DNA of 64,000 nt from an uncultured Lachnospiraceae bacterium (lineage in GTDB: Bacteria > Bacillota > Clostridia > Lachnospirales > Lachnospiraceae). Each line of letters begins with the position of its first letter. The first letter of the stretch is position 1. The notes under the pieces were generated by a model, which was not told the origin of the DNA, ran no database searches, and worked only from the letters and a program-made list of their open reading frames with translations. Both the position numbers and the translations under genes were made by a program. The stretch spans positions 42,773 through 106,772 of the forward strand of contig CALWSF010000002.1 in assembly GCA_944384125.1 (NCBI GenBank). Direction: 5' to 3'. Shown one piece after another: positions 4,477 to 40,724 of the stretch.

Positions 4477-7377
4477 TTAATCTCCATTTATTCGTTCATT
4501 GGATGCGTCAAGCGCTCCGGAATTCATGATATCGTCAAGTGTGGTGTAACCGTAGAAATACCGGTATACATGCTTGGCCACCATCGCCGCATTGGACGAG
4601 GTATATCCGTTTGGTATGTTAACTGTAACAGCAATTTCCGGATTCTCATATGGTGCAAAGGAAATAAAGAATGCGTGGTTTCCCCGTTTGTCCGACTCCT
4701 GAGCGGTACCGGTTTTTCCGGCAATATGAACATCCAGATTATTAAAAATCCTGTTGGTCGAACTGTTGGTAATAACCTGTCTCATTCCCTGTTGTACCGC
4801 ATCCCATGTACTGGAAGCGAAATCAAGAACAGCATGGACAGAAGGTGTATAATCTTTTACAAGATTTCCCTGTGAGTCTGTTTCCTTGTCGATCAGGCTC
4901 AGATCAAAAACGGTACCCCTGTTCGCAAGGGCTGTGACATAGCGCGCCAGCTGTACATTGGCAAACTGATGTGTTCCCTGTCCCATACTGGAACGCTCAG
5001 GGTCTGTGTTACTGATTTCCGGCATAGCCTCATAAATCTCTATACCGGACGGCTGATCCAGACCAAACATGGACGCATATTTGCGCAGGGTTTCCAGTCC
5101 TTTATCCGCATTGTAGGTTCCGTCTGCTTCTGTGGACAGGCGGTGTGCAACCTCGGAAAAGAAATAGTTGCAGGAATTTTCGATACCTCCGATTACATTA
5201 AGAGGTCCGTGAAATCCAGGATATTTCCAGCATCGGATAGGATTGCTGACTTCTTCATAGATACCGGTACAGTTGATTGTATCCAGAAGGCTTATGACAC
5301 CTTCCTCCAGTCCGGCAATGGCAGTAATCGGCTTAAAGGTTGAACCGGGCGCCTTGAGCGTCTGAGTGGCATTGTTTCGAAGAGGAAGTGACTGATCAGA
5401 ATTAAGCTGAGCAAAATACTCACTGTCAGAAATCCGATTGTTGTCATAGCTGGGGTAAGATACAAGCGCCAGCACCTCTCCCGTTTTTACATTTGTCACA
5501 ACACAGCTGGCCGTACATGGATCAAGGGCCAGCTGAGCCGGTGTAATTTCAATATTCCGTATTTTATTCATCAGGAACTGATAGGCATAATCTTCGCCTC
5601 CGGCCCGGAGCTGACTTACTTCAGCTTCATCGTAAGCCAGAACATTCTGTGAGTAAAGCGCCAGACAGAGTTCCCTTCCTGTCACTGTTCCGTTATTGAT
5701 GAGGGAACGGTATATTTCTTTTGTAAAATTCTCATCGTCTGCCAGATTCTCAAAACAGAAATCCACAAGAGCTGTAAATACATCATCTGCATTGGAATAT
5801 CTGCTCTCTATAGGCAGCTTCGTCGTATCAATCCAGTTGCTTGCAATTCCGTAATAAAGGTAATCACGCAGACTGATGGTTCCGTTTTTCCATGCCTGGT
5901 ACTCATCGCCGGAAGTATCAATTGCATCCCGGATGACAACTCCTGCTTCATCACTGGATAAGTACGAATACAGATACTGAAGATACGACTGCATCTCTTC
6001 GGAGAGAGAATTCATCGGAACAGCGTTTTCAGAAAGAAGTTCATTTCTTATATCCTCTTCAATCTGTACACGGGCGCTTTCATATTTGAGGTTGATCTGA
6101 TGTTCCACGTCAGACGCTTCTGCAGAAGAAAAAGCGTCAAGAGACAGAACGTTATTGTTAATCAGCTGAAAATAAGCTGTCTTAACCGGTATCTTAATAC
6201 TGGAGGAGTCTGTGTAAACAATCTCCTCTTCTTCCTGGTTTACAATGGTGTTTAAAAGCACACCGGCCAGCTGCCGTTCGAGAATATTATAGATTCCTTT
6301 CTGCAGATTAAGATCCAGGGTCAGCCAGATATCGTTTCCGGCCACCGGCTGAACCTCATCGGTAATCATCAGGATCCGCCCCACGTTGTCCACATAGGCT
6401 GTCTGTGATCCTTTTTTCCCTTTAAGCTCCAGCTCCATGGAAGATTCGATTCCCGTCCGTCCCACAATATCATTCAGTTCATAATCATCATTGACGGATT
6501 TAAGCTCCTCTAATCTTTCACTTGTAACTTTTCCCGTGTAGCCGATAATCGGAGCAAAATAAATACTTTCGTTGTATACCCGTATCGTGGATTCTTCAAT
6601 GGCAACTCCCGGAAGTTCAGCGGAATGTTCCAGAATATCGGCGACAGTCTCATCTCCAATATCTGTTGCAATCGTAGTTGTCTCATATTTCTGGAAAGCC
6701 GTAAATCGCATGGTGTATCGGATCCCCAGAATCTGGAGTGCAATATCATCCGGTACATCCACAGGATTTCCATTTTCATCGCGGGGTCTTCCGTCCTTGT
6801 CAGGGCTTGCATTCTCCACAAGGCTGTAATCTTCTTTCAAACGCTCGAATAATTCTTCGGCAGTGATGTCTGACGGGTATTTTCCTTCCGCATCATCCAG
6901 CTCATCCACACTGCGAAGACCGTAATAATCACGCAGGAAACGATTGCGGGCTGCCTGTGTCGTACCGGTAAAGGCGATATTTCCGTTCTGATCGATCGAG
7001 AGTTCCAGGCTGGTCTGCACAGTCTCCCCATGCTCAAACAGTATGGAGACCAGACGGTAAAGCATTGTGTTCCACTCATAATCTTTTTTAAAAACACCTG
7101 TATCCTGTATGGATACATCATAGGCAAGTTCATTGTACGCAAGAACATTGCCGTTGCGATCGTATATATTGCCCCGCGTGCTGGCTGTTTTAATAACTTT
7201 TTCCGTCAGTGCAATATAGGCATTCTGGTACTCCTCTCCTTTTACAATCTGCAGGGTAAACAGTCTGACTACCAGTGTACAGAACATCAGACAAAACACC
7301 ACCGACAGTACAAAAAGCCGGGAGGTAATGATTTTTTTTAATGATTCTTTCAGATATTCTTTCAGATCTTCAAACAA
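4477..7377 (-). CDS. mrdA: Class B penicillin-binding protein 2 (elongasome transpeptidase), extra-long
   Basis: PBP2 cross-links new peptidoglycan during elongation, paired with RodA. One N-terminal membrane segment (about residues 20-45) is followed by the PBP dimerisation region and a C-terminal transpeptidase domain. S-T-F-K near residue 676 holds the nucleophile, S-C-N follows near 733, and K-T-G-T is near 886. The protein is 966 residues, against about 630-720 in model species. The excess is a mostly acidic block at roughly residues 375-615, between the L-Q-K-G-I segment and the T-G-E-V-L-A-L strand. The stop lies 16 bases before the minC ATG, and the start overlaps mreD by 8 bases. Confidence 0.93.
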   Translation of the reverse strand: MFEDLKEYLKESLKKIITSRLFVLSVVFCLMFCTLVVRLFTLQIVKGEEYQNAYIALTEKVIKTASTRGNIYDRNGNVLAYNELAYDVSIQDTGVFKKDYEWNTMLYRLVSILFEHGETVQTSLELSIDQNGNIAFTGTTQAARNRFLRDYYGLRSVDELDDAEGKYPSDITAEELFERLKEDYSLVENASPDKDGRPRDENGNPVDVPDDIALQILGIRYTMRFTAFQKYETTTIATDIGDETVADILEHSAELPGVAIEESTIRVYNESIYFAPIIGYTGKVTSERLEELKSVNDDYELNDIVGRTGIESSMELELKGKKGSQTAYVDNVGRILMITDEVQPVAGNDIWLTLDLNLQKGIYNILERQLAGVLLNTIVNQEEEEIVYTDSSSIKIPVKTAYFQLINNNVLSLDAFSSAEASDVEHQINLKYESARVQIEEDIRNELLSENAVPMNSLSEEMQSYLQYLYSYLSSDEAGVVIRDAIDTSGDEYQAWKNGTISLRDYLYYGIASNWIDTTKLPIESRYSNADDVFTALVDFCFENLADDENFTKEIYRSLINNGTVTGRELCLALYSQNVLAYDEAEVSQLRAGGEDYAYQFLMNKIRNIEITPAQLALDPCTASCVVTNVKTGEVLALVSYPSYDNNRISDSEYFAQLNSDQSLPLRNNATQTLKAPGSTFKPITAIAGLEEGVISLLDTINCTGIYEEVSNPIRCWKYPGFHGPLNVIGGIENSCNYFFSEVAHRLSTEADGTYNADKGLETLRKYASMFGLDQPSGIEIYEAMPEISNTDPERSSMGQGTHQFANVQLARYVTALANRGTVFDLSLIDKETDSQGNLVKDYTPSVHAVLDFASSTWDAVQQGMRQVITNSSTNRIFNNLDVHIAGKTGTAQESDKRGNHAFFISFAPYENPEIAVTVNIPNGYTSSNAAMVAKHVYRYFYGYTTLDDIMNSGALDASNERINGD

Positions 7378-7888
7378 GCTTTGAGTCTCTCCTTTGCTCC
7401 CATTCCTTTAGTTTTCGGTTAATAAAGAGGAAAAAGCGATAGACGAACAGTGTCGTCACAGTGGTAAAAATAATTTCCGGCAGAATAATGCTGATAAAAT
7501 AATGCCCGAAATTCAGCCGGTTCCGGATCAGAAAACGGAAAATATATATATAAAGATTATACGCCAGATCACTTACCAGACTCAGTACAAGAGGAAGTGT
7601 GATGTAATCTTCATAATAATATTTGGTACAGATGCCGCTCACATATCCCAGGTTGACAAAAAACAGAGTGTAGAAGCCGAAAGGTCCGCTGTAAAACAGA
7701 TCCATAAACAGGCCTGCAATAAGACCATAAAGCATGCCCCTTTCTCTGCCCTCAATAAAACCTCCTATGAACACGAGAATCAGAAGCAGATTGGGTGCGG
7801 AAGAGAGAAAGGAAAGCTGGGGAAAAACGCAGATCTGGATTGTGAAGGCCAGGATCAGCATTACGATATTAATCAGTATTTTCCGCAT
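7370..7888 (-). CDS. mreD: Rod shape-determining membrane protein MreD
   Basis: MreD is a small polytopic membrane component of the elongasome. The 172-residue product has about five hydrophobic segments, a conserved short loop with FxDLF-like residues (LFMDLFYSGPFGFYTL, near 60-75) and a basic C-terminal tail. ATG at 7888 is preceded by GGGGAGAAG. It overlaps mreC upstream by 20 bases and mrdA downstream by 8 bases, showing tight co-translation of the MreCD-PBP2 module. Confidence 0.88.
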   Translation of the reverse strand: MRKILINIVMLILAFTIQICVFPQLSFLSSAPNLLLILVFIGGFIEGRERGMLYGLIAGLFMDLFYSGPFGFYTLFFVNLGYVSGICTKYYYEDYITLPLVLSLVSDLAYNLYIYIFRFLIRNRLNFGHYFISIILPEIIFTTVTTLFVYRFFLFINRKLKEWEQRRDSKLV

Positions 7889-8717
7889 TTTCTTCTCCCC
7901 CGTTCTTGAGCTGAGTTATAACCAGCACCTCCTGAAGATTGTCAAAATCGGCAACGGGAAGAATCGTTCCCGATTTTGTTACGTTGTTGGCATCAGTAGT
8001 AAGATCGGATGCATATCCGATCAGGATGCCCGGCAGAAAAATATCACTTATGTTAGATGTGACAATCTTATCGCCATCCTGAATATCGGCTTCCTTTTTT
8101 ATGTGGTCCAGACCCAGGCGGCCCTCCTGATACAGAGTCAGATCTCCTGAAACATTGCAGGTGTCCCCGGTTCGCAGCGACATGCCGCTCACGTTGCTGT
8201 CGTCATCTATAATGGCACGGACTGTAGCATAATTGGCACCCACATCTGTGACAATTCCGACAAGACCGCCGCCTGCCATAACATTCATGTTAACCTGGAC
8301 TCCGTCTGAAAGTCCTTTATCAATTCTGAAAACCTGAAACCAGTTTCCCGAGTCTTTGGCAATTACGCGTGCCGCCATCTTGGGGTACTGCATGTATTCC
8401 TGATCAAGCTGATACAGCTCCCGGAGGCGGTCAAGCTCATATACCTCCGACTGGAGACGATTGTTTTCTTCTACCAGCTCATCGATGCGGGCAGATAACC
8501 GGGCATTCTCCTCCTGTGCTTCTTTCAGGGAAGAATAATTCTGTATGGAATTGTAAAGTCCTGTTCCCACGGCATTTACACCCGACTGCAGCGGAACGAG
8601 AATATATCCCACTCCGGTCCGCAGTGGTGTCAGAAAGCTGGAATTGATAGAAGTGGCGGCAATCAGGACAATGCAGAAAGCAGACATCCCCGCCAGAATA
8701 TATTTACTGTTTTTCAT
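7869..8717 (-). CDS. mreC: Rod shape-determining protein MreC
   Basis: MreC is a bitopic protein that links PBP2 and RodA outside the membrane. The 282 residues comprise one N-terminal membrane segment (8-30), a coiled coil rich in Glu and Leu (about 62-105), and the MreC beta-domains including D-x-G-x-x-x-G-V-Q and the G-G-L-V-G-I-V motif near 145-155. The start codon is two bases downstream of the radC stop. In most relatives mreB separates radC and mreC; here nothing does. Confidence 0.93.
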   Translation of the reverse strand: MKNSKYILAGMSAFCIVLIAATSINSSFLTPLRTGVGYILVPLQSGVNAVGTGLYNSIQNYSSLKEAQEENARLSARIDELVEENNRLQSEVYELDRLRELYQLDQEYMQYPKMAARVIAKDSGNWFQVFRIDKGLSDGVQVNMNVMAGGGLVGIVTDVGANYATVRAIIDDDSNVSGMSLRTGDTCNVSGDLTLYQEGRLGLDHIKKEADIQDGDKIVTSNISDIFLPGILIGYASDLTTDANNVTKSGTILPVADFDNLQEVLVITQLKNGGEENAENTD

Positions 8718-37658: not shown

Positions 37659-37687
37659 AGTATACATGATCTCAGATGATAATGCAA
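37659..37687 (-). promoter_or_regulatory. Candidate sigma-A promoter of the beta-CASP nuclease gene
   Basis: TTGCAT (37682-37687), 17 bases, TATACT (37659-37664) on the minus strand. It overlaps the last codons of spoIVA and lies about 45 bases before the ATG at 37616. It would allow vegetative expression independent of spoIVA. Confidence 0.55.
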
Positions 37688-39147
37688 ATCATACCACCGC
37701 TGCTGTCATTGATTATTTTCTGCAGTGTATCCTGAAGCTTAATCTGACAGTCCTCTGTCATCTGGGAAACCTTTGCCTGGATTCCGTCCTCTACTATCTG
37801 TTCAATAGATTTTCCGAAAATATTGGTATTCCAGACACCATCCTCACTCTGACCTGCATTCTCTTTTATGTAGCGAATCAGATCCTCCGCCTGCTGCTCA
37901 TTTCCCACAATAGGAGCAATTTCAGTCTCAATCTGCGCTTTGATAAGGTTAATGGAAGGCGCCTGCGCTTTCATCTTTACACCATATTTATTGCCATGAC
38001 GGATAAGCTGCGGCTCATCAAGCACAATCTCAGAGCGATCCGGTGTTACCACTCCATAACCTTTCATCCGCACCTGACCTACCGCACCGGCGACCTTTTC
38101 GTATTCCCGCTGCATGGATGCCAGTTCGCGAAGCGTCTGCATGAGCTGATATTCTCCCTCAATAGGCATTCCAACGTATTCGCTGAGAATACGGTAATAA
38201 TGTCCCTCATCCACCTCTATATCTGCCTGGACACTTCCGTCATCCATCTTCATGGAAAGAATCCGGACCCGCTTTACAGCCTCGCCGTTTTCAGGAGGAA
38301 GGAAGCGCGACACATCTCTCATGTGTACTGTTTTTTTCATCATATCTCTGACAGCCTGAATGACAGCTTCTTTAAGCCAGTGATCTCTGGGAAGAATTTC
38401 CATCCATTTCGGAATGGAAAAATCAATCTCTGTTACCGGGAATTCTTTAAGTATCTGTTCCAGGATTCCCTTTATATCTTCTGTCTTAAGCTGTTCACAG
38501 TTGACCGGAACCACCTGTACGCCATATTTTTCTTCCATCTGGGCGGCCAGATTCTTTGTCTCTTCCGAATAGGGGCGAAGAGAATTTAAGAGAATTAAAA
38601 AAGGCTTATTCAGGCTTTTAAGTTCTTTGATCGTTTTCTCTTCAGCCGGGACATAACTGTTTCTTTTTATCTCTCCGATACTTCCGTCCGTTGTGACAAC
38701 AAGACCGATAGTAGAATGATCTGTTATAACCTTTCTTGTACCCAGCTCAGCTGCTTCCGTAAAAGGAATCTCCGTATCAAACCAGGGTGTTTTTACCTGC
38801 CGTTCCGCATCATTTTCAATATGACCTGCCGCTCCTTCCACCATAAATCCAACGCAGTCAATGAGACGGACCTTTACATCGATTCCTTCCCCGAGAGAAA
38901 TCTGAGCCGCCTCTTTGGGAATAAATTTGGGCTCCGTTGTCATAATTGTTTTTCCTGCTGAAGACTGGGGAAGTTCGTCGCGCGTCCTCTCCCTTGCATG
39001 GGTATCCTCCATCCCGGGAAGCACCATCAGTTCCATGAATCTTTTGATAAAAGTCGATTTTCCTGTACGGACCGGCCCTACAACACCTATGTATATCTCT
39101 CCTCCGGTTCTCGCTTTTATGTCACTGTATACATCAAAATTGTCCAT
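37672..39147 (-). CDS. spoIVA: Stage IV sporulation protein A, spore coat morphogenetic ATPase
   Basis: SpoIVA polymerises with ATP hydrolysis around the forespore and forms the basement layer of the spore coat. The 491-residue product is the usual length. It starts MDNFDVYSDIKARTGG, has Walker A GPVRTGKST near residue 24 and ends in a hydrophobic segment (GGMICIII), like the SpoVM-interacting C-terminus of its homologues. ATG at 39147 has AAGGGGG upstream; a frame extension to 39186 was rejected. The ribosome site is embedded in a hairpin, with a sigma-E-like promoter just before it. Confidence 0.96.
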   Translation of the reverse strand: MDNFDVYSDIKARTGGEIYIGVVGPVRTGKSTFIKRFMELMVLPGMEDTHARERTRDELPQSSAGKTIMTTEPKFIPKEAAQISLGEGIDVKVRLIDCVGFMVEGAAGHIENDAERQVKTPWFDTEIPFTEAAELGTRKVITDHSTIGLVVTTDGSIGEIKRNSYVPAEEKTIKELKSLNKPFLILLNSLRPYSEETKNLAAQMEEKYGVQVVPVNCEQLKTEDIKGILEQILKEFPVTEIDFSIPKWMEILPRDHWLKEAVIQAVRDMMKKTVHMRDVSRFLPPENGEAVKRVRILSMKMDDGSVQADIEVDEGHYYRILSEYVGMPIEGEYQLMQTLRELASMQREYEKVAGAVGQVRMKGYGVVTPDRSEIVLDEPQLIRHGNKYGVKMKAQAPSINLIKAQIETEIAPIVGNEQQAEDLIRYIKENAGQSEDGVWNTNIFGKSIEQIVEDGIQAKVSQMTEDCQIKLQDTLQKIINDSSGGMICIII

Positions 39148-39154
39148 AAAATTA

Positions 39155-39196
39155 CCCCCTTGCTGTGCTGATACAAGTATATGCACGGCAAGGGGG
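39155..39196 (-). promoter_or_regulatory. Hairpin sequestering the spoIVA ribosome binding site
   Basis: CCCCCTTGCTGTGC (39155-39168) pairs with GCACGGCAAGGGGG (39183-39196): 14 pairs, one of them G-U. The loop itself has ATAC/GTAT pairing. In the minus-strand RNA the 3' arm contains the spoIVA Shine-Dalgarno AAGGGGG. Only a TAATTTT follows, so it is a weak terminator at best. Confidence 0.75.
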
Positions 39197-39205
39197 ATTT
39201 CATGC
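39176..39205 (-). promoter_or_regulatory. Candidate sigma-E promoter of spoIVA
   Basis: GCATGAA (39199-39205), a 15-base spacer, then CATATACT (39176-39183) on the minus strand. The -10 matches seven of eight consensus bases and is identical to the -10 of the yqfC promoter in this window; the -35 matches four of seven. The predicted start, near 39169, falls after the 5' arm of the hairpin. Confidence 0.6.
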
Positions 39206-39241
39206 GCCCGACTTCTGATTTGCAGAGTGCCCGTTTATCTC

Positions 39242-39952
39242 CTACTCACTCAGATATGCTTTTTTAACCTGCTCATTATTCATGAGCTCCTTTGCATCAC
39301 CGGAAAGAACAATTTTTCCTGTCTCAAGAACATACGCCTTATTTGCAATTGACAGTGCTTTTTTTGCATTCTGCTCTACAAGAAGAACTGTCGTTCCGTC
39401 CTTATGAATCTCTTCAATAATATCAAAAATCTCATTTACATAAATAGGGGAAAGACCCATGGACGGCTCATCCATAACAATGAGACGCGGATGAGACATC
39501 AGAGCACGTCCCATAGCCAGCATCTGCTGTTCACCGCCGGAAAGCGTTCCTGCCAGCTGATTTTTCCGCTCCTCAAGACGCGGAAAGCGGGCATAGACCT
39601 TTTTTATCGTATCCTCAATCTCCTGCCGATCTGTTCTTGTGTAGGCCCCCATTTTCAGATTCTGAAGAACAGACAGCTGTGCAAATACGCGTCTGCCCTC
39701 CGGAACATGGGCAATTCCCATGGGAACCAGCTTGTATCCCGGCACTTTTGTGATATCCTTTCCCTCAAATATAATAGATCCTGATTTGGCGGGAATCAGA
39801 CCGGTAATAGTATGGAGCGTTGTTGTTTTTCCGGCCCCGTTTGCTCCTATAAGAGCTATTACATCTCCCTGTTCAACCTCAAAGGAGATCCCCTTCAGGG
39901 CCTGGATTACCCCGTAATATACGCTTAAATCCCTAACCTCCAGCATTGCCAT
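39242..39952 (-). CDS. livF: Branched-chain amino acid ABC transporter ATP-binding protein LivF
   Basis: One of two ATPases of a Liv-type importer. The 236-residue protein has Walker A GANGAGKTT (near 37-45), signature LSGGEQQML (near 136-144) and Walker B LIVMDEPS. TVLLVEQNAKKAL in the C-terminal part is typical of LivF. ATG at 39952 follows GGGGGAGA; the longer frame to 40015 lies inside livG. It is the last gene of the operon, and the spoIVA region follows 95 bases later. Confidence 0.93.
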   Translation of the reverse strand: MAMLEVRDLSVYYGVIQALKGISFEVEQGDVIALIGANGAGKTTTLHTITGLIPAKSGSIIFEGKDITKVPGYKLVPMGIAHVPEGRRVFAQLSVLQNLKMGAYTRTDRQEIEDTIKKVYARFPRLEERKNQLAGTLSGGEQQMLAMGRALMSHPRLIVMDEPSMGLSPIYVNEIFDIIEEIHKDGTTVLLVEQNAKKALSIANKAYVLETGKIVLSGDAKELMNNEQVKKAYLSE

Positions 39953-39965
39953 GTTGAATCTCCCC

Positions 39966-40724
39966 CTATTCTCCCAGATATGCCGCAATAACCTGCGGAT
40001 TGTTGAGCACCTCACTGGTCGGTCCCTCCGCCAGCATGTGGCCGAAGTTCAGAACCGTAAGCCTCTCGCAGATGCCTGATACCAGTTTCATATCATGCTC
40101 AATAAGCAGAACTGTCATATCAAAATGGTCACGGACAAAACGGATTGTTTTCATGAGCTCCTCCGTCTCATTCGGATTCATTCCGGCTGCCGGTTCGTCA
40201 AGAAGAAGGAGCTTTGGTTCTGTGGCAAGTGCGCGGGCAATCTCAAGCTTTCTCTGTTTACCATAAGGAAGATTGGATGCCTTAAAAGCAAACTCTCCAT
40301 CCAGATCAAATACCTTCAGAAGTTCCATGGCCTTTTCATCCATAGCTTTTTCTGTCCTGTAATAGGAAGGAAGACGGAAAATCCCCTCCAGTGTGGAATA
40401 ACGGTAATGATTGTGCAGGCCGACTTTTACATTGTCCAGCACACTCAGATCCTTAAACAGGCGAATGTTCTGAAAAGTTCTTGCAATTCCCGCCTGATTG
40501 ATAGCGGCTGTCCGATGCCCGGTAATATCGGTTCCATCCAGGGTAATACGGCCGCAGTCCGGCTTGTATACACCGGTCAGAAGATTGAATATAGTTGTTT
40601 TTCCGGCTCCGTTAGGGCCTATAAGACCGTATAACTGCCCTTTTTCAACGGTTATATTAAAGTCATCCACCGCTTTCAGTCCGCCGAAGGAGATACTCAG
40701 GTTTTTTACTTCCAGCATTGCCAT
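39966..40724 (-). CDS. livG: Branched-chain amino acid ABC transporter ATP-binding protein LivG
   Basis: The second ATPase of the Liv importer, 252 residues. Walker A GPNGAGKTT is near 36-44, Walker B LLLLDEPAAGMNP near 172 and the H-loop LLIEHDMKLV near 205. The additional GxxRTFQNIRLF segment near 78-92 is characteristic of LivG. The signature is degenerate (LPYGKQRKLEIARAL), as is usual in this family. ATG at 40724 is preceded by GGGAGGCG, three bases after the livM stop. Confidence 0.93.
   Translation of the reverse strand: MAMLEVKNLSISFGGLKAVDDFNITVEKGQLYGLIGPNGAGKTTIFNLLTGVYKPDCGRITLDGTDITGHRTAAINQAGIARTFQNIRLFKDLSVLDNVKVGLHNHYRYSTLEGIFRLPSYYRTEKAMDEKAMELLKVFDLDGEFAFKASNLPYGKQRKLEIARALATEPKLLLLDEPAAGMNPNETEELMKTIRFVRDHFDMTVLLIEHDMKLVSGICERLTVLNFGHMLAEGPTSEVLNNPQVIAAYLGE

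Follow-up and report, generated by a model that had tools for sequence, protein, structure and literature searches.

A candidate start-site insulator at spoIVA of Lachnospiraceae: a sigma-E-like promoter within a predicted RNA hairpin

Many sporulation genes lie directly behind growth genes. How could such a gene be kept silent when transcription runs in from upstream? The question is raised by spoIVA in the window, i.e. the whole 64,000-nucleotide stretch of DNA that was analysed, from an uncultured Lachnospiraceae bacterium, where the gene follows a livF-like frame on the same strand. The answer that we consider probable, based on RNA folding and on the comparison of leaders, is a compact insulator at the start site. 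The gene's sigma-E promoter would lie within an RNA hairpin that hides the ribosome site. The features involved are the following.

37672..39147, minus strand: spoIVA coding sequence, ATG at 39147 (TIGR02836, E 1.5e-203, residues 1-491)
39145..39152, minus strand: outer 3′ strand, containing the AUG (39147-39145), in the minimum free energy (MFE) structure of the read-through RNA
39148..39154, minus strand: U-rich spacer between the Shine-Dalgarno (SD) site and AUG, TAATTTT, a possible weak terminator tract
39155..39160, minus strand: SD site AGGGGG, read from the sequence; opening cost 18.3 kcal/mol in read-through RNA versus 0.8 kcal/mol in RNA from the predicted start
39155..39168, minus strand: hairpin 3′ arm, with which the spoIVA mRNA is predicted to begin
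39169, minus strand: predicted transcription start, an A, 7th base past the -10
39176..39183, minus strand: sigma-E-like -10 CATATACT, conserved, overlapping the 5′ arm and the loop
39183..39196, minus strand: hairpin 5′ arm, within the -35/-10 spacer and the first -10 base
39197..39204, minus strand: outer 5′ strand, whose partner in the MFE structure of the read-through RNA is 39145-39152, including the AUG
39200..39204, minus strand: imperfect -35, CATGA, where relatives show ATA
39242..40015, minus strand: livF-like frame upstream of spoIVA, stop at 39242-39244 (extent as listed, start provisional)

The hairpin and the two RNA forms in the window

The first-pass annotation of this DNA had described a 14-base stem holding the spoIVA SD site in its 3′ arm, and this stem was confirmed. 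On the minus strand, CCCCCTTGCCGTGC (39196-39183) pairs with GCACAGCAAGGGGG (39168-39155) at 13 of the 14 positions, the single mismatch being a C-A (39187/39164). The hairpin has an MFE of -24.8 kcal/mol, which none of 200 dinucleotide shuffles equalled (z -4.67); the window contains 18 inverted repeats with arms of at least 12 nt lying no more than 40 nt apart, this one included. A search of positions 38900-39400 with the Rfam 15 families gave no match at E values up to 1. In the longer RNA, 39204-39197 also pair with 39152-39145, so that the spoIVA AUG is in the stem as well, and the stem is bigger than first noted.

Sigma-E promoters have the consensus CATAnnnT at -10 and ATA at -35, at a fixed spacing. 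The annotation had placed a sigma-E-like promoter over the loop and the 5′ arm. The -10-like element at 39183-39176 fits the consensus and is conserved in relatives. At the -35 position relatives show ATA, whereas the window reads ATG, within CATGA, so that its -35 is imperfect.

In the mechanism that we propose, the -35/-10 spacer, in which the C-run of the 5′ arm is located, would encode that arm, and the spoIVA mRNA would begin with the 3′ arm and its SD site. Polymerases coming from a codirectional upstream operon would copy both arms, the hairpin would form, and SD and AUG would be hidden; better copies of the hairpin might also stop transcription immediately ahead of the AUG. In the mother cell, polymerase carrying sigma-E would start at about 39169, inside the hairpin, and yield an mRNA lacking the 5′ arm, which would be translated.

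Both RNA forms were folded, as the annotation had suggested. For six 5′ ends between 39400 and 39197, giving read-through RNA, the mean unpaired probability of the SD site was 0.001-0.003. It was 0.74 in the RNA starting at 39169, whose predicted fold does not contain the hairpin; the expectation that a transcript from the internal promoter would lack the 5′ arm and keep its ribosome site free was borne out in this computation. Concealment of SD and AUG in the read-through RNA, and an accessible SD in RNA from the predicted start, are thus supported by computation, and from this we infer a translation block in cells. One point goes against the insulator: with five 5′ ends within 39192-39176, the SD was only half open (0.45-0.59).

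Conservation, covariation and promoter position among relatives

The comparison covered 168 spoIVA leaders, from 78 of the 80 loci of one set (L047 and L066 had no usable start and were dropped), 89 further loci and the window; L001-L007, copies of genomes already included, were left out. By title or by search scope, 150 of these leaders were assigned to Lachnospiraceae; the other 18 (L071-L088) come from Clostridia further away, most of them titled as Ruminococcus or Oscillospiraceae. Removal of 11 identical leaders from the 150 left 139 distinct ones. For each leader the cost of opening the SD site was computed twice, for a transcript beginning 95 nt upstream and for one beginning at the predicted start, and a hairpin was called when the two costs differed by at least 6 kcal/mol; this cut-off, the start codons, the SD and the start sites were all assigned by script. 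As background, 400 other gene starts of the 80-locus set were used (8 of 408 were dropped by random sampling).

Median opening costs in read-through and short RNA were 12.9 and 2.6 kcal/mol in Lachnospiraceae, against 2.5 and 1.8 in the background. A difference of at least 6 kcal/mol was found in 104 of the 139 distinct leaders and in 11 of the 400 background starts (Fisher p 9e-67). The opening cost reached at least 8 in 114 of the 150 leaders, all of which pair at least 4 of the 6 SD bases upstream of the predicted start. The 35 leaders missing the cut-off include two from Hungatella (L026 and L061; L023 passes). Among 20 spoIVA leaders of other families of the class, 4 passed. One of these 4 is L315, which is also one of the two leaders from the same order and has a long hairpin and a T-run by eye.

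Loss of stem pairing in close relatives had been named beforehand as evidence against the reading. It was seen once, in the nearest sister L009 (SpoIVA 88% identical), where the CCCCCTTG arm is lost. The spoIVA leaders of the genus pass the opening-cost test in 7 of the 8 genomes (L008 fails). In L009 the SD is still partly paired to other upstream bases, and the leader passes the energy cut-off and is counted as a hairpin; the locus also has a strong separate terminator (d 34.4) upstream. The spoIVA leader of L169 carries an unusually long inverted repeat with arms of about 22 nt, one mismatch by eye, and the -10 CATACAAT inside the stem.

The annotation had also proposed an alignment of relatives for compensatory base changes, and pairing proved to be conserved with covariation. 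With RNAalifold, 69 hairpin leaders gave 5 pairs, 4 of them with double changes. Because the register of the 5′ arm shifts among species, an alignment by columns understates covariation, and a swap test was used, in which the pairing of each leader's own upstream segment with its SD segment is compared with that of partners exchanged among leaders. For 107 leaders below 80% identity, taken from the 139 irrespective of the hairpin, the native mean was -15.68 against -11.91 (sd 0.27) for permuted partners, z -14.2. The 18 more distant Clostridia gave z +1.7. A control segment 60 nt further upstream, available for 74 leaders, gave z -0.8, and the same 74 on the real segment z -12.9. Compensatory arms can be recognised by eye: CCTCC/GGAGG in L055, CCCCTTTGGC/GCCAAGGGG in L070, GGTCTG/CAGACC in L014.

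These results bear on two other explanations. A chance encounter between a G-rich SD and a nearby C-rich promoter spacer deserves mention in that SD hairpins of -9 kcal/mol or better occur at 162 of 731 sampled starts (sampling described below) and are not rare by themselves; we reject it, given the swap test with its null controls and the proportions of leaders and background starts that pass. It is also very improbable that the inverted repeat works as DNA, as a promoter-overlapping operator to which a dimeric regulator binds. Operators often take the form of a dyad across a promoter, and a dyad would covary too, but here arm sequence, spacing and register all vary, and in the RNAalifold set U-G cells are frequent (65 of 345, with C-A at 16), a bias that the SD constraint could also give.

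The promoter motifs keep their place in many leaders. The commonest -10 forms of the 104 hairpin leaders are CATATACT (39) and CATATATT (27), together 66. A second set comprises the 104 leaders whose -10 is in the usual position, whether or not they have the hairpin; 63 of them carry ATA exactly 19 nt 5′ of the -10, and 84 carry ATA at 18-21 nt. Across leaders the -10 and -35 motifs fit sigma-E, whose use, like the start site, we infer from them. In 74 of the 104 hairpin leaders the predicted 5′ end falls 21-23 nt ahead of the AUG. This recurrent arrangement, including the -10 with ATA at 19 nt, argues against a hairpin that works within the spoIVA mRNA, for stability or as a regulated leader, with transcription starting upstream of 39197. 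That possibility, which we regard as improbable, has a parallel in B. subtilis sigG, where the passages available of one paper describe a small ribosome-site hairpin within the mRNA that dampens expression (PMC5942855).

Upstream genes and a possible terminator role

The annotation had presented the insulator as a protection against read-through from the liv operon. Crude ORF calls for 61 hairpin leaders give livF as the nearest upstream frame in 20; the others comprise 29 that follow some other codirectional frame, 8 that follow one on the reverse strand and 4 that follow gpsA. As upstream genes vary, insulation from liv alone is too narrow, and with yabP, spoIIE and most spoIID leaders of the genus being similar (see below), we rejected this part of the claim. 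A codirectional upstream frame was found at 101 of 103 hairpin loci versus 29 of 34 others (p 0.01).

The stem followed by its U-rich spacer resembles a terminator of the upstream operon, a point absent from the first-pass annotation. T content of the spacer was 77% in hairpin leaders, 42% in Lachnospiraceae without hairpin, 27% in the background and 14% in the 18 distant leaders; a run of at least three T was present in 93/104, 9/35, 35/400 and 0/18, respectively. Separate upstream terminators were found at 4 of 103 hairpin loci versus 9 of 34 without hairpin (p 4.8e-4; one leader per group dropped, less than 450 nt upstream). Divided by gap length, the counts with and without hairpin are 0/46 versus 0/5 up to 75 nt, 1/40 versus 3/14 at 76-150 nt and 3/15 versus 5/10 above 150 nt (the ninth terminator of the hairpin-less group belongs to a locus without codirectional frame), so that gap length accounts for part of the association. 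Since a U-rich spacer and a scarcity of separate terminators accompany the hairpin, it may also terminate the upstream operon. A classical terminator score above 0 was obtained for 35 of 97 closed hairpins and for 0 of 16 in the hairpin-less group, and the window scored -3.8; the score being weak, we word termination conditionally throughout.

Could the hairpin be a plain intrinsic terminator of the upstream operon, with the SD overlap a by-product of compaction and the hiding irrelevant? We find this rather unlikely, though it has the U-rich spacer and the rarity of separate terminators on its side. Intrinsic terminators likewise consist of a stem and a U-rich tract, often just past the upstream stop codon, and among 19 livF loci the distance from the livF stop to the 5′ arm is 6-20 nt in 12 and 6-25 nt in 13. 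The spoIVA element differs from them by its large loop containing the -10, by a 3′ arm that is the SD site, by the pairing of both SD and AUG in the window, and by the weak classical score. A livF stop 6-20 nt before the 5′ arm also means that a terminating ribosome could disturb the hairpin.

Other sporulation genes and known systems

Leaders of other sporulation genes were examined in the 8 genomes of the genus by two criteria: (A) an SD hairpin of -9 or better with five or more T among the 8 nt that follow, and (B) an opening-cost difference of at least 6 kcal/mol. By criterion A, spoIVA passed in 7/8 genomes, yabP in 6/8 (8/8 for the hairpin alone) and spoIID in 3/8, while spoIIIAA, ylbJ and a 780-aa SpoIID-like gene passed in 0/8 and intact spoIIID in 0/6. 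By criterion B, the yields were 7/8 for spoIVA, 6/8 for yabP and for spoIID, 5/8 for spoIIE and 1/8 for spoIIIAA, with 0/8 for ylbJ and the 780-aa SpoIID-like gene, 0/6 for intact spoIIID and 0/7 for sigG (the eighth sigG, split, was left out). A rule for all sporulation genes is ruled out by spoIIIAA, ylbJ, spoIIID, the 780-aa SpoIID-like gene and sigG.

In all 8 yabP leaders (L241-L248) a sigma-E-like promoter is enclosed by an SD hairpin (CCTCC.../...GGAGG), and the spacer is T-rich. The hairpin is present in yabP of the window's own genome (L246), whose fixed short RNA stays mostly closed (8.8 versus 7.6). All 8 spoIIE leaders (L320-L327; L260 3972-5520) have an SD hairpin of -13.9 to -25.9 with a T-tract; in 7 of them the promoter reads TTTGACA, 21 nt, TATAAT, and the spacer holds the 5′ arm of the SD hairpin. 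For spoIID, arms and a T-rich spacer were seen by eye in 6/8 (L195-L197, L200-L202); L198, whose start was mis-called by the script, was checked by eye only. Across the family, among 29 spoIID leaders including that of the window genome (L216 was left out of the 30 loci), 6 passed criterion A and 9 criterion B.

The frequency of such leaders was estimated from 731 gene starts, sampled in 400 kb from each of two genomes and in the window. In the genome of the same genus, a hairpin with U-tract was found at 7 of 323 starts, one with a sigma-E-like motif inside; this one is spoIIE (TIGR02865), and its promoter reads better as TTGACA/TATAAT. The second Lachnospiraceae genome gave 4 of 355, with the motif inside at one, an EamA-like transporter by our own reading. 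The window gave 1 of 53, namely spoIVA, whose -35 fails the strict motif. With 12 of 731 starts in all, one being spoIVA, the arrangement is not a genome-wide commonplace. The scan missed yabP in a stretch holding that gene (L260) and so undercounts.

A broader reading, to which we give an even chance, is that Lachnospiraceae possess a recurrent fused element of about 50 bp at early sporulation genes, combining upstream-operon terminator, promoter and ribosome site. The promoter would be nested in the terminator, only RNA born inside would escape termination and be translated, and the element would be a general separator of growth and sporulation in compact genomes. It would comprise spoIVA, yabP and spoIID with sigma-E-like promoters, and spoIIE with a promoter of the sigma-A/Spo0A type. 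The layout at spoIVA and these other early spore genes suggests a compact separation of the growth and spore programs. If the reading is true, one short element keeps genes placed behind growth genes silent without a separate terminator, provides a sequence signature for early sporulation start sites in gut bacteria for which genetic tools are scarce, and is a compact insulator part.

The underlying logic has precedents. In the IS10 transposase gene, read-through RNA hides the start site and RNA from the internal promoter does not, which shields the transposon from outside promoters. As described in the passages available for phage T4 gene e and I-TevI, long early transcripts fold and conceal the ribosome site, with a 100-fold reduction, the gene e mRNAs made from late promoters do not include the 5′ part and are translated well, and leaders like that of gene e are predicted in related phages (PMC3014915). 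What resembles the arrangement proposed for spoIVA is a promoter inside a structure that silences the longer RNA; unlike spoIVA, gene e belongs to a phage early/late switch with no sporulation sigma factor, and those passages mention no terminator role. For B. subtilis sigG (spoIIIG), the passages available report that a hairpin of 20 or more pairs was proposed to block translation of spoIIG read-through, and that mRNA starting at the sigG promoter is unable to form this large hairpin (PMC5942855). The likeness to the spoIVA proposal is a read-through hairpin absent from own-promoter mRNA; the differences are that sigG is a forespore gene of Bacillus, and that in the window's genus sigG and spoIVA behave oppositely in criterion B.

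Already known from T4 gene e and B. subtilis sigG, this logic would here be extended from a phage and a single B. subtilis gene to a whole family. What is new is a fused layout conserved before several sporulation genes: the arms covary across the family, the hairpin is joined to a U-tract like that of a terminator, and more than one early sporulation gene has such a leader. The titles and abstract openings searched in the literature named no such element at spoIVA, and a printed description may still exist.

A last observation concerns spoIIID in the genus. In L297 (843-962 and 8215-8352; G001:C22:153842-153961 and 161214-161351) the gene is interrupted by about 7.2 kb encoding a large serine recombinase (6693-8228, Pfam Resolvase/Recombinase) and a Mob_Pre protein (5388-6332), possibly a skin-like element. 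The window's own genome has spoIIID split at the same place, on two contigs (G000:C44:19111-19233 and C79:440-577; L299 and L298), and the remaining 6 of the 8 genomes have the gene uninterrupted.
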